Assembly (NCBI RefSeq): GCF_900103875.1
Contig: NZ_LT629705.1
Location: 1,006,501 to 1,070,500 of the forward strand
Length of the DNA stretch: 64,000 nt
Direction: 5' to 3'
Source: Pseudomonas arsenicoxydans
GTDB lineage: Bacteria > Pseudomonadota > Gammaproteobacteria > Pseudomonadales > Pseudomonadaceae
Shown: positions 5,209 through 64,000 of the stretch, piece after piece
Layout: the number at the start of each line of letters is the position of its first letter
Position numbering within the stretch: the stretch's first letter is position 1
Made by a program: the position numbers and the translations under genes
Notes under the pieces: model-generated
Database searches by the model: none
What the model saw: only the letters and a program-made list of their open reading frames with translations
Told to the model about the DNA's origin: nothing

Positions 5209-7253
5209 GCGACGAAACAGAGCGTTGGAAAGAGAAATACCTCAAAAGCATCGAACAACAGGAAAAGCTCGAACGTCGGTGGAACGCCAGGCTCGACCTG
5301 CTGCGCCGTGGCCTGGTGCGTAGTACGCTTGCTGCGGAAGGCACCGATCGCGCCGTTGATCTATGCATGAAGGAAATGCGCGAAGTCGTGCGCACCGATG
5401 ATATGGACGCCGGCCTCGCCGCCCTGCTGCCACGGCTCGAAAAAGCGGTGCTCGACTCCGAACAGCGCCGGGAAACCCGGGTCAACCAGACCAGCGCCGC
5501 ACTGAATGCACTGGTGACACAGCTGCAAACGCTACCGCTGCCACGCGAAGTCAGCCGACCGCTCAAGAATTTTGCCAAGCAACTGGATGGCCGGGTCAGT
5601 CAGGCAAGGGAAATTCCGTTGCTGCTCAGCGAGCTGAGTGGCCTTCAAGGCAACGCCTTGCGCCAACTGGACAACCCGACAGAGCCTGATCGTCCTGGTT
5701 TTTTGCAGCGGTTGTTCGGTAACCGGGAAGCGGATGAGGCCACGGCGCAGGTTGCCGTCGTTTCCGTGCAAGCGCCTGCCCCGCAGACGGCTGAACCGAC
5801 TAACGCACCAGCTGCTGAGACTCGACCGGAAACAGTCGATACCGCGCCCACGATAGAGCAGCCGCCAGTCGCGCCATCACCGGCCCACGACGCCCCACCT
5901 GTCGTTGCAATCCCTGAGTCCCTGGTTATACAGGCCGTTCCCAAAGAGGTTACAGCTCCCGACGTCGTGGCGTTTGTCCCGCCTGTCCTTGCCCCAGCGC
6001 CTGAATGTGCGCAGCCGGCAGAGCCACAAGAGCCGAGCGATTTTGAACAACTGGAAGAGCCAGCGCTGCCAGTCATCGCACCTGCCGCGCAGGTTCAAGA
6101 GTTAATCAATCCTGACGAATTGAAACCGGCAGCGGCGACCACCGGCGATGCGCAGCAACCTGAGCCAGGGGACATTGTTTATGCCTTACCGGACTCACCA
6201 GAGCCTTCCTACAGTTCTGTGGCCAAGCACATTGAAGACACGCTGTTGGGCCTTCTTGACGACCTGACGCTGCCCGAACGTCACCGGCCGCAAGCCGAAG
6301 CGATGCGCGACCGTCTGCAAAACGGCTTGAACTGGTACGAGTTGATCCCGATCCTCGACGATCTGGCGACATTGATGCTGGCAATCACCGACAGCGGTCA
6401 GCACGAATTCGAAGCTTACTTGCAGCATCTCAACGAACGCCTGGAGTCCTTCCAGAGCAACTTGCAGGCGGCCAGTGACGGCCATGCCGACAATCGCTCT
6501 GCTGCGCGTGAAATGGACACGCAGATCCGCGAGCAGGTCGACGGCTTGCAAAGCAGCATGCAGGAAGCGGCAGATCTGGAGGACCTCAAGCACGTTCTGG
6601 AGAACCATCTCGAAGGCCTGCTGGGCACGATGGACCAACACCAAAAGCAGCGCGACGAGCGTGAGCACGAAATCGCCGCACGCCTGCAAGGCCTGGCGGA
6701 ACGGGTGGCACACATGGAACAGGAAGCGCTGGGCTATCGCGAGCACCTCGAGGAACAGCGCCAGAAGGCCCTGATCGACCCGCTCACCAACCTGCCCAAT
6801 CGAGCCGCCTGGAGTGAGCGGCTGGAGCACGAAGTTCGCGACTGGCAGCAACACGGCAACACCCTATTGCTGGTGATGCTGGACCTCGACCACTTCAAAC
6901 GCATCAACGATAACTACGGGCACCTTGCGGGTGACAAAGTACTGAAAATCATCGCCGGCGTATTGCGCAAGCGCCTGCGGGGAACGGATTTCATTGCACG
7001 ATTCGGAGGTGAGGAGTTTGTCATGTTGATGCCTGACACTTCCCTGGTAACCGGCGCAAAGCTGCTGGAAACCATGCGCGCCTCCATTGAGGCCTGCCCT
7101 TTTCACTTCAAGGGCGAACGGGTGACCATCACGCTGTCCGTAGGTTTTACCGCATTGAAAACCGCGGAACACAGTGATCAAGCGCTGAAAAGAGCCGATC
7201 AGGCGTTGTATCGCGCAAAAAATGCCGGCCGCAACCGGGTTGAACCAGGCTGA
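5205..7253 (+). CDS. dgcH: Diguanylate cyclase with long N-terminal region
   Basis: Makes cyclic di-GMP. The 682-residue protein has no clear membrane segment. Residues ~1-190 are helical and charged; ~190-330 is a Pro/Ala/Glu-rich low-complexity linker; ~330-520 is a helical region with coiled-coil character; and a GGDEF domain fills ~525-682. The active-site loop reads GGEEF, and the product-inhibition I-site RxxD (RGTD) lies five residues before it, so the enzyme should be active and feedback-controlled. It overlaps the EEP gene by four bases. The symbol rests on position equivalent to PA5487 from memory. Confidence 0.92.
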   Translation: MSDETERWKEKYLKSIEQQEKLERRWNARLDLLRRGLVRSTLAAEGTDRAVDLCMKEMREVVRTDDMDAGLAALLPRLEKAVLDSEQRRETRVNQTSAALNALVTQLQTLPLPREVSRPLKNFAKQLDGRVSQAREIPLLLSELSGLQGNALRQLDNPTEPDRPGFLQRLFGNREADEATAQVAVVSVQAPAPQTAEPTNAPAAETRPETVDTAPTIEQPPVAPSPAHDAPPVVAIPESLVIQAVPKEVTAPDVVAFVPPVLAPAPECAQPAEPQEPSDFEQLEEPALPVIAPAAQVQELINPDELKPAAATTGDAQQPEPGDIVYALPDSPEPSYSSVAKHIEDTLLGLLDDLTLPERHRPQAEAMRDRLQNGLNWYELIPILDDLATLMLAITDSGQHEFEAYLQHLNERLESFQSNLQAASDGHADNRSAAREMDTQIREQVDGLQSSMQEAADLEDLKHVLENHLEGLLGTMDQHQKQRDEREHEIAARLQGLAERVAHMEQEALGYREHLEEQRQKALIDPLTNLPNRAAWSERLEHEVRDWQQHGNTLLLVMLDLDHFKRINDNYGHLAGDKVLKIIAGVLRKRLRGTDFIARFGGEEFVMLMPDTSLVTGAKLLETMRASIEACPFHFKGERVTITLSVGFTALKTAEHSDQALKRADQALYRAKNAGRNRVEPG

Positions 7254-7356
7254 CAGGCAATTGTGCCATTTTATTTAAAACTGCGCTTTTGCCTTCTGCG
7301 CGCGAGTCAGTACGTTACACTGTTGCATTACTGTCTTGCGTGTATTGCCTCCAGCC

Positions 7357-8136
7357 ATGAAATGTCTTGCTCTCATTGTGTCGCTGCTCCTGTTGGCCGG
7401 TTGTGCCAGTGGTCCGCGGATCGACACCAGTCACCCTTCAGCCAATTACGACAGTCGCATTCAGTTCGTGGTGGTGCATTACACCAACGCCTCACTTGAG
7501 CGCTCGCTGCAACTGCTGACCCACGGCGAGGTCAGCAGCCACTATCTGATCGGCGACGATAAAGGCGCCACCATCTATAAGCTGATGGATGAAAACTTGC
7601 GCGCCTGGCACGCCGGTGAAAGCGAATGGCAAGGCCGGACCTGGCTGAACTCCAGCTCCATCGGCATCGAGATCGTCAATCCGGGCTTCAAAGACACCCC
7701 GACCGGTCGCCTGTGGTATCCCTACAGCGAAGATCAGATTCAGTCGTTGATCTTCCTGCTCAAGGACATCAGCAAGCGTTACAACATCGACCCTGGCGCC
7801 ATCATCGGTCATAGCGACATTGCGCCGCTGCGCAAGCTCGATCCTGGCCCGCTGTTCCCCTGGAAACGCCTGGCCGCCGAAGGCCTGGGTATCTGGCCCA
7901 ACGAGCAGGCGGTTGCACGCCAGCAAGCCCAGTATGCAGTCGAGCTGCCAAGCATCGGCTGGTTCCAGTCACAGTTGGCTCACCTCGGTTATGCCACGCC
8001 GCAAACGGGTGAGCTGGATGTTGCAACACGCCATGTCCTGGCCGCTTTCCAGATGCATTTCCGCCCCACCCGCTTCGATGGCACCCCGGACGCTCAAACC
8101 GCAGCATTGCTACAGGTTTTGAATCAGACAAAATAA
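7357..8136 (+). CDS. ampDh2: Lipoprotein N-acetylmuramoyl-L-alanine amidase (AmpDh2/AmiD type)
   Basis: Zinc amidase that cuts the MurNAc-L-Ala bond of peptidoglycan or its fragments at the outer membrane. The 259-residue product starts at MKCLALIV, giving a type II signal with lipobox LAGC. An Amidase_2 domain follows with zinc ligands in VVVHYTNAS and GHSDIAPLRKLDPG, plus HAGES. The C-terminus (~185-255) is a peptidoglycan-binding helical domain. An upstream TTG at 7336 is possible but would bury the lipobox start. It lies just before kinB/algB as in other pseudomonads, although an EAL gene intervenes here. Confidence 0.9.
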   Translation: MKCLALIVSLLLLAGCASGPRIDTSHPSANYDSRIQFVVVHYTNASLERSLQLLTHGEVSSHYLIGDDKGATIYKLMDENLRAWHAGESEWQGRTWLNSSSIGIEIVNPGFKDTPTGRLWYPYSEDQIQSLIFLLKDISKRYNIDPGAIIGHSDIAPLRKLDPGPLFPWKRLAAEGLGIWPNEQAVARQQAQYAVELPSIGWFQSQLAHLGYATPQTGELDVATRHVLAAFQMHFRPTRFDGTPDAQTAALLQVLNQTK

Positions 8137-8208
8137 TGACGCCCGCCCGACGGTCAGGGCTATTTCCAAATCAGCAGCTATAACTCATTGGTAATTCTTC
8201 GGATATCC

Positions 8209-9825
8209 ATGATGGCTGTAGCTCGAGAGACGCTTCGTAGTTGGTTCTATCGCCCTTGGTTCCTGGCGATACTGGCTGCTGCCTTGAGCGCAACGCTATT
8301 GATGGCCGGTAGCCTGTTCGTGGCAATGCATCAGGTCGAACAAAGCGAAAGCGAGGAAATGAATGCTCAGGGCGAGCGCTTCCTGGTCCGCCTGGAGCAG
8401 TTGTTCGGACAACTTCGCGAAAGCCTCGACGATCTCGAAGCCCAACCGTTGCGGACCTGTGATACGGCGATGGTCGCGACCTTGCAACAGGTGAGTTTCA
8501 ATTACCGATTCGTTTACGAAGCTGCTTACATGGATGGCCCGCGAATCTGCTCAAACCGCCCCCGCCAGGAAGTGTTGTCGCTGACACGACCACCGGATAT
8601 AAGGGGCCCCACCTACAGCTTCTGGTTGAATACCACGACCGAACCCGATGAAAACCGTGCTGCGCTGATGCTCGGACGTGGCAACTTTCGTGTCGCGACG
8701 TCTCGCGGACATTTGACCGACATGGTCGATCTGTCCCCCGGTAGCAGCCTGCTGGTCGTGCTCGATCACGGCAACCGCGCGATTCCGGTTCTGGGTGTCG
8801 AGCAAGTCTGGCCGCCCACGGAACCCTGGCCCCCAAAAAGCCAGGATGCATTGCAAGTGACACAAACCCGCTTGATCTACCGCATGCCCACCAACAACCC
8901 CGAATACCAACTAGTGCTGATCACACCGCGCACCGGCATGCATGTGCCTGCCGTGTGGTGGTGGCTACTGCCGGCCAGCCTGGCCTTGGGGGTTTTCGTT
9001 GGTTTCATGGTGTTTTTGCTGGTCCGACAGCGACAGTCGCTGGATGCCGAATTGAACGGCGCCATTCGCCGAGGCGAGTTGCAGGTGCTGTATCAACCGA
9101 TCTTTGATCTCGACAGTCGCAACTGTGTCGGTGCCGAAGCCTTGCTGCGCTGGCGAAGGCCGGACGGCACCCTGACCAGTCCCGACCTGTTCATCCCGAT
9201 GGCCGAAAACACCGGCCAGATCCGTCAGATGACCGACTTCGTATTGCAGCGGTTGCTTGAACAACTGGGGCAGTTGCTACGCGCCAACCCGCAGCTGTAC
9301 ATCTCAGTCAACCTGGCAGCTTGCGACGTCATGGTCCCACGTATCGGTCAGGTGATGGCCCGTCTGTTGACCTTGCACCGGGTCGCGGCAAAGCAGATCG
9401 CTTTCGAGGTGACAGAGCGCGGCTTGATCGACGTGGTGGTGGCCAGGGAAAACCTGCAAGCGCTGCGCGATGTCGGGCATCAGGTGTTGATCGATGACTT
9501 TGGCACCGGTTATTGCAGCCTCGCCTACCTGCAAACCCTGCCGGTGGACTGCCTGAAAATCGACAAGGCGTTTATCGATGCATTGGGTCATGACGCCGCC
9601 AGCAGCGGTGTAGCACCGCACATCATCCATATGGCGCAGGCCCTGCAACTCAAGGTGATCGCCGAGGGTATCGAGCATGAAGCCCAGGCGAAGTTTTTGA
9701 GCAGTGAAGGTGTGAGGTATGGTCAGGGTTGGCTGTTCGCCCATGCACTGAGCGCCGTACAGTTCATTGAACTGATTACCCGCGGTCGCCGGCTGAACGC
9801 CCGGCGCCTGGATGATGAAGCCTGA
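8209..9825 (+). CDS. c-di-GMP phosphodiesterase with periplasmic CSS-motif sensor and EAL domain
   Basis: Membrane phosphodiesterase (538 aa). A transmembrane segment at ~20-40 and another at ~250-275 flank a periplasmic CSS-motif domain with cysteines in LRTCDTAM and ICSN. The cytoplasmic EAL domain keeps the usual catalytic set: EALLRW, SVNLA, FEVTE, DDFGTG, LKIDK, AEGIE and YGQGW. CSS domains in this family respond to periplasmic redox state via DsbA/DsbB, and dsbA lies 4 kb away; whether that is functional is inference. ATG codons at 8209 and 8212 are equally good starts. The gene converges on kinB with a 15-base gap. Confidence 0.9.
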   Translation: MMAVARETLRSWFYRPWFLAILAAALSATLLMAGSLFVAMHQVEQSESEEMNAQGERFLVRLEQLFGQLRESLDDLEAQPLRTCDTAMVATLQQVSFNYRFVYEAAYMDGPRICSNRPRQEVLSLTRPPDIRGPTYSFWLNTTTEPDENRAALMLGRGNFRVATSRGHLTDMVDLSPGSSLLVVLDHGNRAIPVLGVEQVWPPTEPWPPKSQDALQVTQTRLIYRMPTNNPEYQLVLITPRTGMHVPAVWWWLLPASLALGVFVGFMVFLLVRQRQSLDAELNGAIRRGELQVLYQPIFDLDSRNCVGAEALLRWRRPDGTLTSPDLFIPMAENTGQIRQMTDFVLQRLLEQLGQLLRANPQLYISVNLAACDVMVPRIGQVMARLLTLHRVAAKQIAFEVTERGLIDVVVARENLQALRDVGHQVLIDDFGTGYCSLAYLQTLPVDCLKIDKAFIDALGHDAASSGVAPHIIHMAQALQLKVIAEGIEHEAQAKFLSSEGVRYGQGWLFAHALSAVQFIELITRGRRLNARRLDDEA

Positions 9826-13262: not shown

Positions 13263-13310
13263 GCAGGATGCGTCCTGCGTACTTTTAACAATCAATCTAA
13301 CTCATTGATT
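13263..13310. promoter_or_regulatory. Two inverted repeats upstream of the sigma-54 promoter (candidate activator sites)
   Basis: GCAGGA-TGCG-TCCTGC (13263-13278) and AATCAAT-CTAACTC-ATTGATT (13290-13310) are perfect inverted repeats 28-75 bases upstream of the -24 element. Enhancer-binding or IHF sites would be expected in this interval. Assignment to AlgB is not possible from sequence alone. Confidence 0.35.
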
Positions 13311-58820: not shown

Positions 58821-59280
58821 GGATATCCCCTAAGTTGAAAGCCGGTGAGGCAAAAACAAGCGGCCATTGTAGCGACCAGACGTCCACTTATCCACATGCA
58901 GGTTGCGCACAGGCCATGAATTATCAACGCGTTACCCCTCATAAAGACGACCAACGGTATGTGCATAAGCTCTGTGGATAACCGACCATGAGGACACTGG
59001 ACAAGTGGGGGCTAAACTCGGTGGATAACCTGCCTGTGGATAACTAGCCGTTCCACACACAGCTTATCCGATAGCGCAGCACAGGCTGACCACCGTTTTC
59101 CACTGTAGTTGTCATTCTCTGTACAGCACGGAGTAGAAGGTCTAAAGCCACTTATCCACAGAGGAAGGCGTCCCTAGCTTTTATAAGCTTTACAAAAAAG
59201 CTTTAAATAACTTCCTTCTTTATTTCTATATCTAGCGAAGGCTGCGCGAGCGAAAAAACGCCTGGAGATCTATTTATAAG
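58821..59280. other. oriC: Replication origin oriC (between dnaA and rpmH)
   Basis: Four perfect DnaA boxes: TTATCCACA at 58888-58896 and 59152-59160, and TGTGGATAA at 58973-58981 and 59035-59043. A one-mismatch box, GGTGGATAA, is at 59020-59028. To the right of the last box is an AT-rich block (59177-59234, with TTTATAAGCTTT, AAGCTTTAAATAA and TTTATTTCTATATC), the likely unwinding element, followed by GATC at 59267. Layout and position between dnaA and rpmH match known Pseudomonas origins. Confidence 0.92.
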
Positions 59281-59297
59281 GAAACGTTGGTTGGAAA

Positions 59298-59326
59298 TTG
59301 ACCTAGAGGCTTGCTTTCTCTAGAAT
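59298..59326 (+). promoter_or_regulatory. Sigma-70 promoter of rpmH
   Basis: TTGACC (59298-59303), a 17-base spacer and TAGAAT (59321-59326), each one or two bases from consensus. Predicted start is near 59333, about 55 bases before the rpmH ATG. Confidence 0.7.
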
Positions 59327-59387
59327 CCCCGGTCTCTTAAAACGGGGGCCATTCCGGCCCGTTGTGGACGAACCAGGTAACACGACA

Positions 59388-59522
59388 ATGAAACGTACTT
59401 TCCAACCAAGCACTATCAAACGCGCTCGTACCCACGGTTTCCGTGCTCGCATGGCAACCAAGAACGGTCGTGCCGTCCTGTCGCGTCGTCGCGCCAAAGG
59501 TCGTGCGCGTCTGGCAGTTTGA
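59388..59522 (+). CDS. rpmH: 50S ribosomal protein L34
   Basis: A 44-residue, highly basic ribosomal protein: begins [20 protein letters not shown] and ends [12 protein letters not shown], the full family sequence. First gene of the rpmH-rnpA-yidD-yidC cluster to the right of oriC; rnpA begins 16 bases later. Confidence 0.98.
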
Positions 59523-61887: not shown

Positions 61888-61908
61888 TTTACACTGTGGA
61901 TAACCACT

Positions 61909-61966: not shown

Positions 61967-63337
61967 ATGAGCGTTCCTCGTGAAACCATTGCAGCCGTCG
62001 CCACCGCTCAAGGTCGCGGTGGTGTGGGCATCGTCCGTATTTCCGGGCCGTTGGCGAGCCTTGCAGCCAAAGCCATCAGCGGTCGCGAACTGAAACCCCG
62101 ATTTGCCCATTACGGCCCGTTTCTCAGTGAAAACGAAGAGGTGCTCGACGAAGGCATCGCGTTGTATTTCCCCGGACCGAACTCATTCACCGGCGAAGAT
62201 GTGCTTGAACTGCAGGGGCACGGCGGGCCGATCGTGCTGGACATGTTGCTCAAGCGTTGCCTGGAACTGGGCTGTCGTCTCGCCCGTCCGGGTGAATTCA
62301 GTGAGCGAGCGTTCCTCAATGACAAACTCGATCTGGCCCAAGCGGAAGCTATCGCCGACTTGATCGAGGCAAGTTCTGCACAGGCCGCACGCAACGCGCT
62401 GCGTTCGTTGCAGGGTGCATTTTCCCAACGTGTGCATAACCTCACCGAACAACTGATTGGCCTGCGCATCTATGTCGAGGCGGCTATTGATTTTCCGGAA
62501 GAAGAAATCGATTTTCTAGCGGATGGTCACGTACTGGCCATGCTCGACAAAGTGCGCGACGAATTATCCACAGTGCTTCGTGAAGCCGGGCAAGGTGCCT
62601 TGCTGCGTGACGGGATGACGGTGGTCATTGCCGGCCGTCCGAATGCCGGTAAATCCAGCCTGTTGAATGCATTGGCTGGTAGAGAAGCCGCGATCGTCAC
62701 CGAGATTGCCGGCACCACCCGGGACATTCTTCGCGAACATATCCACATCGATGGCATGCCGTTGCACGTGGTCGACACTGCAGGCTTGCGCGATACCGAT
62801 GACCAGGTGGAAAAGATCGGGGTTGAACGGGCGTTGAAAGCCATCGGCGAGGCCGATCGCGTGCTGTTGGTGGTTGATGCGACCGCTCCAGAAGCACTTG
62901 ATCCATTCGCTTTATGGCCGGAATTTCTCGAAATTCGCCCGGATCCGTCCAAAGTGACGCTGATTCGCAATAAGGCGGACCTGACCGGGGAAGCGATTGC
63001 CCTGGAAGTCAGTGACGATGGCCATGTCACGATCAGCCTCAGTGCAAAATCCGCCGGCATGGGTCTGGAACTGCTACGCGAGCATCTCAAGGCGTGCATG
63101 GGCTACGAGCAGACCTCGGAAAGCAGCTTCAGCGCACGCAGACGTCACCTTGAAGCGTTGCGACATGCCAGCGCGTCCCTTGAGCATGGCCGTGCACAGT
63201 TGACCCTGGCGGGGGCCGGTGAACTGCTGGCCGAAGATTTACGTCAGGCTCAGCACTCACTTGGTGAAATCACCGGTGCATTCAGCTCCGATGACCTGCT
63301 GGGACGCATTTTCTCCAGCTTCTGCATCGGTAAATAG
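61967..63337 (+). CDS. mnmE: tRNA uridine-5-carboxymethylaminomethyl modification GTPase MnmE (TrmE)
   Basis: With MnmG makes cmnm5U34/nm5U34 in tRNAs. 456 aa: a tetrahydrofolate-binding N-domain ([23 protein letters not shown]), a helical domain, the G domain ([39 protein letters not shown]) and the C-terminal CIGK. ATG at 61967 gives the family length. A perfect DnaA box lies within (62564-62572). mnmG, its partner, begins 548 bases downstream. Confidence 0.98.
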
Positions 63338-63351
63338 TCCCGTCGTTATTC

Positions 63352-63380
63352 ACAGACAGGCCATTCGAGCCTGTCTGTTC
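63352..63380 (+). terminator. Terminator after mnmE
   Basis: A 10-pair perfect stem ACAGACAGGC / GCCTGTCTGT with a seven-base loop, followed by TCCCTCCCTT. T tract is interrupted, so strength is uncertain. Confidence 0.65.
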
Positions 63381-63469
63381 CCTCCCTTGTCCTGAATTTT
63401 TCTCCAGTGCCGAGCATATTCCTTCTGCTTGAGCGGATTTTCTGTGCCCGCAATTCGCTCAATCAGCGC

Positions 63470-63780
63470 TTTTCTGTGGATTAAGCCCTGTGAGTAACTG
63501 CCACTAAGGGCAGTTGATAACAGGGCCTCAAAACTGAAGATAACCGCCCCTGTGGATAACCACCCCTTTAATCCACAGGCTTAAACCGGTTATCCAAGGG
63601 CCTCATTGGCACATGACCACAGGGTTTTGAATCTCTGTACATATTGAATATAAAGGCCTGTAAAGATCTATCCACAGAAAGGTGCCTCAATAGAAATAAA
63701 CATAAAAACAAAGATTTAATAAATTTCTTTCTTTTTAATTTCTATAACCCCGACTTCTCCACAGCTGGTTAAATTTTGTG
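63470..63780. other. Second oriC-like region (DnaA-box cluster plus AT-rich block) upstream of mnmG
   Basis: One perfect DnaA box, TGTGGATAA (63551-63559), and four boxes with one mismatch: TGTGGATTA (63475-63483), TAATCCACA (63569-63577), CTATCCACA (63668-63676) and TTCTCCACA (63755-63763). An AT-rich block follows (about 63690-63749, with AAACAAAGATTTAATAAATTT and TTTCTATAA). The order box, GAAAGG, AT-rich, TTTCTATA repeats that of oriC. The whole 548-base gap between mnmE and mnmG contains no gene. TATACT at 63811 is a likely -10 for mnmG. Confidence 0.7.
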
Positions 63781-63885
63781 CAAAGGGTTCTTTAGGAAGG
63801 GCGAAGTCCCTATACTTGCCGACCAGGTATAGAAACCTGAGCTCAAACTATTCCTGATTACCTGACTGAAGCAGGCACGAGGTGC

Positions 63886-64000
63886 GTGGTGGATTTCCCT
63901 TCCCGTTTTGAAGTGATCGTCATCGGCGGCGGTCATGCCGGTACCGAGGCTGCACTGGCGTCAGCACGCATGGGGGCAAAAACCCTGTTGCTGACGCATA
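63886..64000 (+). CDS. mnmG: tRNA uridine-5-carboxymethylaminomethyl modification enzyme MnmG (GidA), N-terminal part
   Basis: FAD-dependent partner of MnmE. Only the first 38 codons are in the window: [20 protein letters not shown], with the FAD-binding GxGxxG-like [26 protein letters not shown]. The start is GTG at 63886, followed by a second GTG. The gene continues beyond the window. Confidence 0.96.

Follow-up and report, generated by a model that had tools for sequence, protein, structure and literature searches.

Bacteria are taught as having one origin of replication per chromosome. For Pseudomonas aeruginosa, two origins, oriC1 and oriC2, were reportedly described by Yee and Smith in 1990, Smith et al. 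in 1991 and Jiang et al. in 2006, and oriC2 presumably lies near gidA (mnmG), that is, at the site of the module treated here. As quoted in a passage of PMC4403523, two autonomously replicating elements were characterised in this species, and only one of them is essential under typical laboratory growth. A second Pseudomonas origin is therefore of a kind already known; two-origin reports for pseudomonads were also mentioned in an earlier reading of the DNA by a model (the sequence-only reading). A passage of the same 2015 paper states that there was then no evidence for two functional origins used on one chromosome (PMC4403523). In the bipartite origins described in excerpts of PMC4285127, the unwinding element is located in one of the two sub-regions. 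Box-for-box identity of two sites, wide occurrence in a family and a match to the Escherichia coli site were not found in the literature searched, which consisted mostly of titles, abstract openings and passages.

The window, i.e. the whole 64-kb stretch of DNA analysed, is part of one 6.50 Mb contig from a Pseudomonas-type genome, an assignment based on named Pseudomonas relatives of this gene block. It contains from left to right gyrB, recF, dnaN and dnaA (all on the minus strand), oriC, rpmH, rnpA, yidD, yidC, mnmE, the module under study and mnmG. Several of these gene names were assigned on the assumption that the conserved order holds. The features that frame the two sites are as follows:

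58821 to 59388: oriC region, the dnaA-rpmH gap
61967 to 63337, plus strand: mnmE, an open reading frame
63338 to 63885, no strand: mnmE-mnmG intergenic region, delimited by gene ends and sequence, which holds the second origin-like module
63886 to 64000, plus strand: mnmG from its start (GTG), running past the window end

From the anchor box of oriC at 59152 to that of the module at 63668, the distance is 4516 bp. The short yidC-mnmE gap carries a perfect DnaA box at 61895-61903, followed by an inverted repeat that was spotted by eye.

The module consists of the boxes and the AT-rich block listed below. Offsets are counted from the box adjoining the AT-rich block (63668 in the module and 59152 in oriC, both taken as 0), and conservation is pairwise conservation across 18 genus loci.

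63475 to 63483, minus strand: DnaA box TAATCCACA, one mismatch, offset -193, conservation 0.96
63489 to 63497, minus strand: weak DnaA box TTACTCACA, two mismatches, offset -179, conservation 0.96
63512 to 63520, minus strand: weak DnaA box TTATCAACT, two mismatches, offset -156, conservation 0.96
63535 to 63543, minus strand: weak DnaA box TTATCTTCA, two mismatches, offset -133, conservation 0.81
63551 to 63559, minus strand: perfect DnaA box TTATCCACA, offset -117, conservation 1.0
63569 to 63577, plus strand: DnaA box TAATCCACA, one mismatch, offset -99, conservation 0.94
63590 to 63598, plus strand: weak DnaA box TTATCCAAG, two mismatches, offset -78, conservation 0.96
63668 to 63676, plus strand: last (R1-like) DnaA box CTATCCACA, one mismatch, adjoining the AT block, offset 0, conservation 0.96
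63697 to 63746, plus strand: AT-rich block and candidate DNA unwinding element, with the lowest stability of all 50-mers in the window
63755 to 63763, plus strand: DnaA box TTCTCCACA, one mismatch, in the mnmG upstream region or leader, offset +87, conservation 0.89

The sequence-only reading had counted one perfect box, four with one mismatch and weaker ones at 63489 and 63590. All of these were recovered, together with two further two-mismatch boxes at 63512 and 63535. Its description of the layout holds with one correction: the plus-strand box at 63668 is followed by GAAAGG and then by an AT block ending in TTTCTATA, but the one-mismatch box at 63755 is on the far side of this block. At -179, the module box is TTATTCACA (one mismatch) in 14 of the 18 genus loci, and 33 of 55 anchored mnmG-upstream regions share the box at -99. 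With a cluster of DnaA boxes and an adjoining AT-rich candidate unwinding element, the sequence features of a DnaA-type chromosomal origin are present.

The oriC of the same genome shares this arrangement:

58888 to 59231, plus strand: oriC at dnaA, with boxes at 58888 (-264), 58960 (-192), 58973 (-179), 59020 (-132), 59035 (-117) and 59152 (0), and a candidate unwinding block at 59182-59231

Its boxes lie on the plus strand at -264, on the minus strand at -192, -179, -132 and -117, and on the plus strand at -56 (two mismatches) and 0; one more two-mismatch box is located at -231. The module boxes at -193, -179, -133, -117 and 0 therefore correspond to oriC boxes at -192, -179, -132, -117 and 0, with the same strands and offsets that agree within 1 bp. 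The order is also the same, from the boxes to the last box and the AT block, so the claim that the module repeats the plan of oriC is upheld. The two sites differ in that oriC has stronger boxes and the extra -264 box, while the -99 box of the module is absent from oriC here and present at oriC in two named relatives, L202 and L204. The whole window was scanned on both strands with a template of minus boxes at -193, -179, -133 and -117 (1 bp tolerance) and a plus box at 0. This template, which was fixed after both sites were already known, scored 43 at 59152 and 39 at 63668, and the next best score was 18; 30 windows with their bases shuffled inside 500-bp blocks scored 20 at most. No third site matching the box spacing was found on either strand of the 64-kb window.

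The likeness extends to the bases between the boxes. When the two sites were anchored on the last box, the alignment called for by the sequence-only reading, made here without gaps, gave 151 identical bases of 315 (48%), against a mean of 79.8 in shuffles (sd 7.6, z 9.3). Outside the boxes, 112 of 241 bases were identical, compared with a mean of 63.1 (sd 7.9, max 82) in 80 slid registers. This match in one register outside the boxes indicates sequence homology beyond a shared set of boxes. Divided by half, the similarity reached z 8.3 in the box half and was less clear in the AT half (41/87, z 4.2).

Nearest-neighbour duplex energies placed 63697-63746 at rank 1 among the 63951 50-mers of the window. 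The oriC block at 59182-59231 ranked 24 and, among separate minima, comes third, behind the module block and one at 13285. IHF-like sites were represented by one perfect site in oriC (58922) and two one-mismatch sites in the module (63706 and 63709), both inside the AT block; scanning of both sites revealed no IHF-like site at a common position.

Of 30 genus loci, 12 had no mnmG in the stretch, and conservation was measured in the remaining 18 on an alignment that runs from mnmE to mnmG. Pairwise identity among the 18 was lowest in the spacer that follows mnmE (0.49). It rose to 0.81 across the box half, where the bases outside the boxes alone gave 0.75, to 0.84 for the last box together with the AT block, and to 0.85 in 63756-63884, up to the mnmG start. 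Single boxes, two-mismatch ones included, were conserved at 0.81-1.00 across these loci, so the loss of the boxes in related Pseudomonas genomes, which would have spoken against the sequence-only reading, was not observed.

A layout score based on boxes at -179, -117 and 0 was used with a cut-off of 21 (maximum 16 in 2200 shuffled regions). Upstream of mnmG, the layout was detected in 18/18 genus, 27/28 family/genus, 4/27 order and 0/28 class loci, as well as in all 14 named Pseudomonas loci (one of them titled Paucimonas, a metagenome bin), where the genus, family/genus and named sets may share species. The one family/genus locus of the 28 without it was L149. Upstream of dnaA, the layout was present in 13 of 13 named Pseudomonas loci with a scorable dnaA, and it was found at both sites in all 13 where both could be scored; one genus genome, G028, lacked it at dnaA (score 15). 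In three of the 13 named Pseudomonas loci (L206, L209 and L211), mnmE and mnmG are about 4 kb further apart. In L206 the extra stretch (5469-9462) falls between the two origin copies, and its open reading frames, named by eye, resemble a TonB-type siderophore receptor, a FecR-like protein and a FecI-like sigma factor. Additionally, a plus-strand DnaA box about 60-140 bp upstream of dnaA (58888 here) recurs in many dnaA-upstream regions, some of them without the origin layout, and is possibly a dnaA promoter element.

Whole genomes of 99 Pseudomonadaceae were searched with the fixed spacing -179, -117, 0 and up to three mismatches. The pattern occurred in 84 of them, with two matches in 49 and one in 35; 15 had no match and none had more than two. 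The reversed pattern, used as a control, gave 0 matches in the same 99 genomes. In the family genome G256, the two matches are 24 kb apart. The order sample yielded the pattern in 8 of 145 genomes, six of which are Pseudomonadaceae and two members of family f5; a pattern match occurs in G345 (f5). Outside Pseudomonadaceae, the layout was found at mnmG in 5 of 39 scored genomes of the order and at dnaA in 3 of 51. These three, G100 (f5), G091 (f33) and G102 (f7), contradict a first supposition, since dropped, that only Pseudomonadaceae have the dnaA-side copy; in G100 the match lies at the far contig end and dnaA in the first bases, so that its dnaA-side placement assumes circularity. Within family f7 (loci L102, L119 and L292), G064 shows the layout at mnmG only; in G102 mnmG and dnaA both have it, which makes f7 a second family with the double arrangement.

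The sequence-only reading had also called the module boxes weaker, possibly tuned to another DnaA-ATP level. Their weakness agrees with the comparison across genomes: summed over the five matched boxes, oriC had fewer mismatches than its module counterpart in 14 of 15 genomes, and in the fifteenth the two sites were equal (p 0.0009). In the present genome, the module has one perfect box and oriC four.

We conclude that the module very probably represents a second, homologous copy of the chromosomal origin ("oriC2") and not a chance cluster. The earlier proposal of a duplicated origin is supported by box spacing and orientation, the like bases between the boxes, the order of the elements and conservation in relatives. 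In the proposed mechanism, DnaA would first bind the module at its perfect box (-117) and at the R1-like one, and ATP-DnaA would then fill the weak boxes between them. The assembly would open the 63697-63746 block, where the helicase would be loaded. Since the module boxes are weaker than those of oriC and oriC is 4.5 kb away, oriC should usually fire first; its fork would pass the module almost at once and replicate it passively. The module could then serve as a reserve or subordinate origin, act under special conditions, or form a local DnaA sink upstream of mnmG. A spacing-matched, conserved second copy across a family makes origin movement and the role of second origins directly testable, and the paired copies in many genomes show which origin positions are kept in both.

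Which copy is older was approached through the spacing in other groups, the similarity of the copies and GC skew. The E. coli spacing (-180, -106, 0) was found at mnmG in 13 of 16 named loci of Vibrio/Alteromonas type (1 bp tolerance). With fixed spacing, the E. coli pattern gave 0 matches in 184 class genomes; either the class sample holds no such genomes or fixed spacing is too strict. Among the named loci, Amphritea and Neptuniibacter have the Pseudomonas layout at mnmG and not at dnaA. Over 295 bp, mean identity was 0.564 among oriC copies, 0.576 among module copies and 0.460 between the sites (0.477 within a genome), compared with 0.25-0.26 after shuffling. Against the mnmG copies of eight other Pseudomonadales, picked because the layout is present in them, oriC copies reached 0.377 and module copies 0.391. 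In a tree of the 295-bp segments, whose deep nodes are weak, most oriC and module copies separate, several family segments fall cleanly in neither group, and the other-family mnmG copies stand beside the module copies.

The GC skew at fourfold-degenerate sites of yidC and mnmE, taken relative to dnaA/dnaN, was used as an indicator of the side from which the block is replicated. In this comparison, which involves small groups and still includes gene-specific biases, the means were -0.19 in Vibrio/Alteromonas-type genomes (8/8 negative), -0.19 in other Pseudomonadales (22/24 negative), +0.28 in betaproteobacteria (0/5 negative), +0.008 in Pseudomonadaceae (9/15 negative) and 0.000 in seven unassigned class genomes (4/7 negative). 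Pseudomonadaceae differed from the Vibrio/Alteromonas type (Mann-Whitney p 0.0002), from other Pseudomonadales (p 0.0004) and from betaproteobacteria (p 0.008). The AT skew difference of the dnaA-mnmG block was the same in Pseudomonadaceae (+0.195) as in other Pseudomonadales (+0.196). The intermediate GC skew is consistent with a shift of the origin from mnmG to dnaA, the skew being still short of equilibrium, or with shared use of both sites. Because the module occupies the position of the E. coli/Vibrio oriC with the same polarity, it may, by this analogy, be the older origin site. A further step, which we put forward as a tentative and somewhat doubtful possibility, is that the family retains two working, homologous origins within a few kilobases of each other: next to mnmG the old gammaproteobacterial (E. 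coli-type) site, and next to dnaA its copy, now dominant. Origin relocation would then be caught part-way, with the old origin weaker, still under selection and able to fire when oriC is blocked.

The same observations bear on the reading that the module was once an origin and is now a relic in decay, without a present role, which we consider unlikely. Its weaker boxes would be expected of a relic, and an origin switch would leave the dnaA-mnmG block with the kind of in-between GC skew measured in Pseudomonadaceae; the finding, quoted in a passage of PMC4403523, that P. aeruginosa has a single essential origin points the same way. Decay is difficult to reconcile, however, with boxes that are conserved at 0.81-1.0, weak ones included, next to a spacer at 0.49, and with module copies that are as alike among genomes as the oriC copies (0.576 vs 0.564).

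The number of boxes was not retained as evidence for the module, because the neighbourhood of oriC is box-rich throughout. The window contains 48 boxes with at most one mismatch, compared with a mean of 6.2 in shuffles, and the cluster by itself is for this reason weaker evidence than its appearance suggests. Of the 135 perfect TTATCCACA boxes in the 6.5 Mb genome, 33 fall within 50 kb around oriC (contig 1036501-1086500, i.e. about 30001-64000 of the window and 16 kb beyond), at 6, 7, 7, 8 and 5 per 10 kb, with 2 in the next 10 kb rightward and 1 in the 50 kb leftward. In a separate count without statistics, among the matches listed, 26 of 31 perfect boxes at contig positions of about 1.1-3.0 Mb are on the plus strand, compared with 14 of 32 to the left of the window. 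The enrichment around oriC speaks for a locus of DnaA titration or switching (datA- or DARS-like) that sits in a box-rich zone and never unwinds, and an excerpt of PMC12371093 describes boxes accumulating toward the origin in E. coli and Salmonella, favourable to titration. Titration requires neither the exact spacing of oriC nor an adjoining AT block, yet the module has both, and its block is the least stable 50-mer in 64 kb; we regard this alternative as improbable.

It is very improbable, in our assessment, that the module is a DnaA-controlled regulatory region of mnmG-rsmG-parAB that is merely origin-like. The segment before mnmG (63756-63884), with the box at 63755 at its edge, is conserved like the box half, and trmEF-rsmG-noc is described as being under DnaA regulation in B. 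subtilis (an excerpt of PMC8203912). Regulation leaves the oriC spacing unexplained, and a consensus scan of 63300-64000 detected no plus-strand promoter-like site. Regulatory and origin roles of the module could coexist.

A single bipartite origin, an idea offered by the sequence-only reading, whose halves would be the module and oriC brought together by looping, is highly improbable: both sites do flank one conserved block of about 4.5 kb with identical polarity, but each carries the complete set of boxes as well as a candidate unwinding block, where excerpts of PMC4285127 place the element in one sub-region; the sites are about 4 kb further apart in 3 of 13 named genomes and the matches 24 kb apart in G256; and P. 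aeruginosa is reported to need only one of its two (quoted in PMC4403523).

Compared with known systems, the second, homologous origin copy proposed here most resembles P. aeruginosa oriC1/oriC2 in having two origins on one Pseudomonas chromosome; there both replicate autonomously and one is essential. The arrangement also resembles the bipartite origins of Bacillus subtilis and Helicobacter pylori, in which two DnaA-box clusters flank genes near dnaA, and differs from them in having a candidate unwinding element at both clusters and a spacer of several genes. The boxes of E. coli oriC are named R1 to R4. With mnmG turned to the right, that origin has boxes at -180 (minus), -106 (minus) and 0 (plus), then the AT block and then mnmG. 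Unlike this type of oriC, which has many GATC/Dam sites, the whole mnmE-mnmG intergenic region contains one GATC, at 63665; the module boxes are weaker, and a second origin is present at dnaA. The R2-like box is at -117 in the module and at -106 in E. coli, so that the middle box of the module lies 11 bp further out. As in E. coli and Vibrio, the module is located upstream of mnmG with its AT side toward mnmG and the same polarity, and, as in E. coli, it has an R4-like box at -179 (vs -180), an R2-like box on the same strand and an R1-like box adjoining the AT block.
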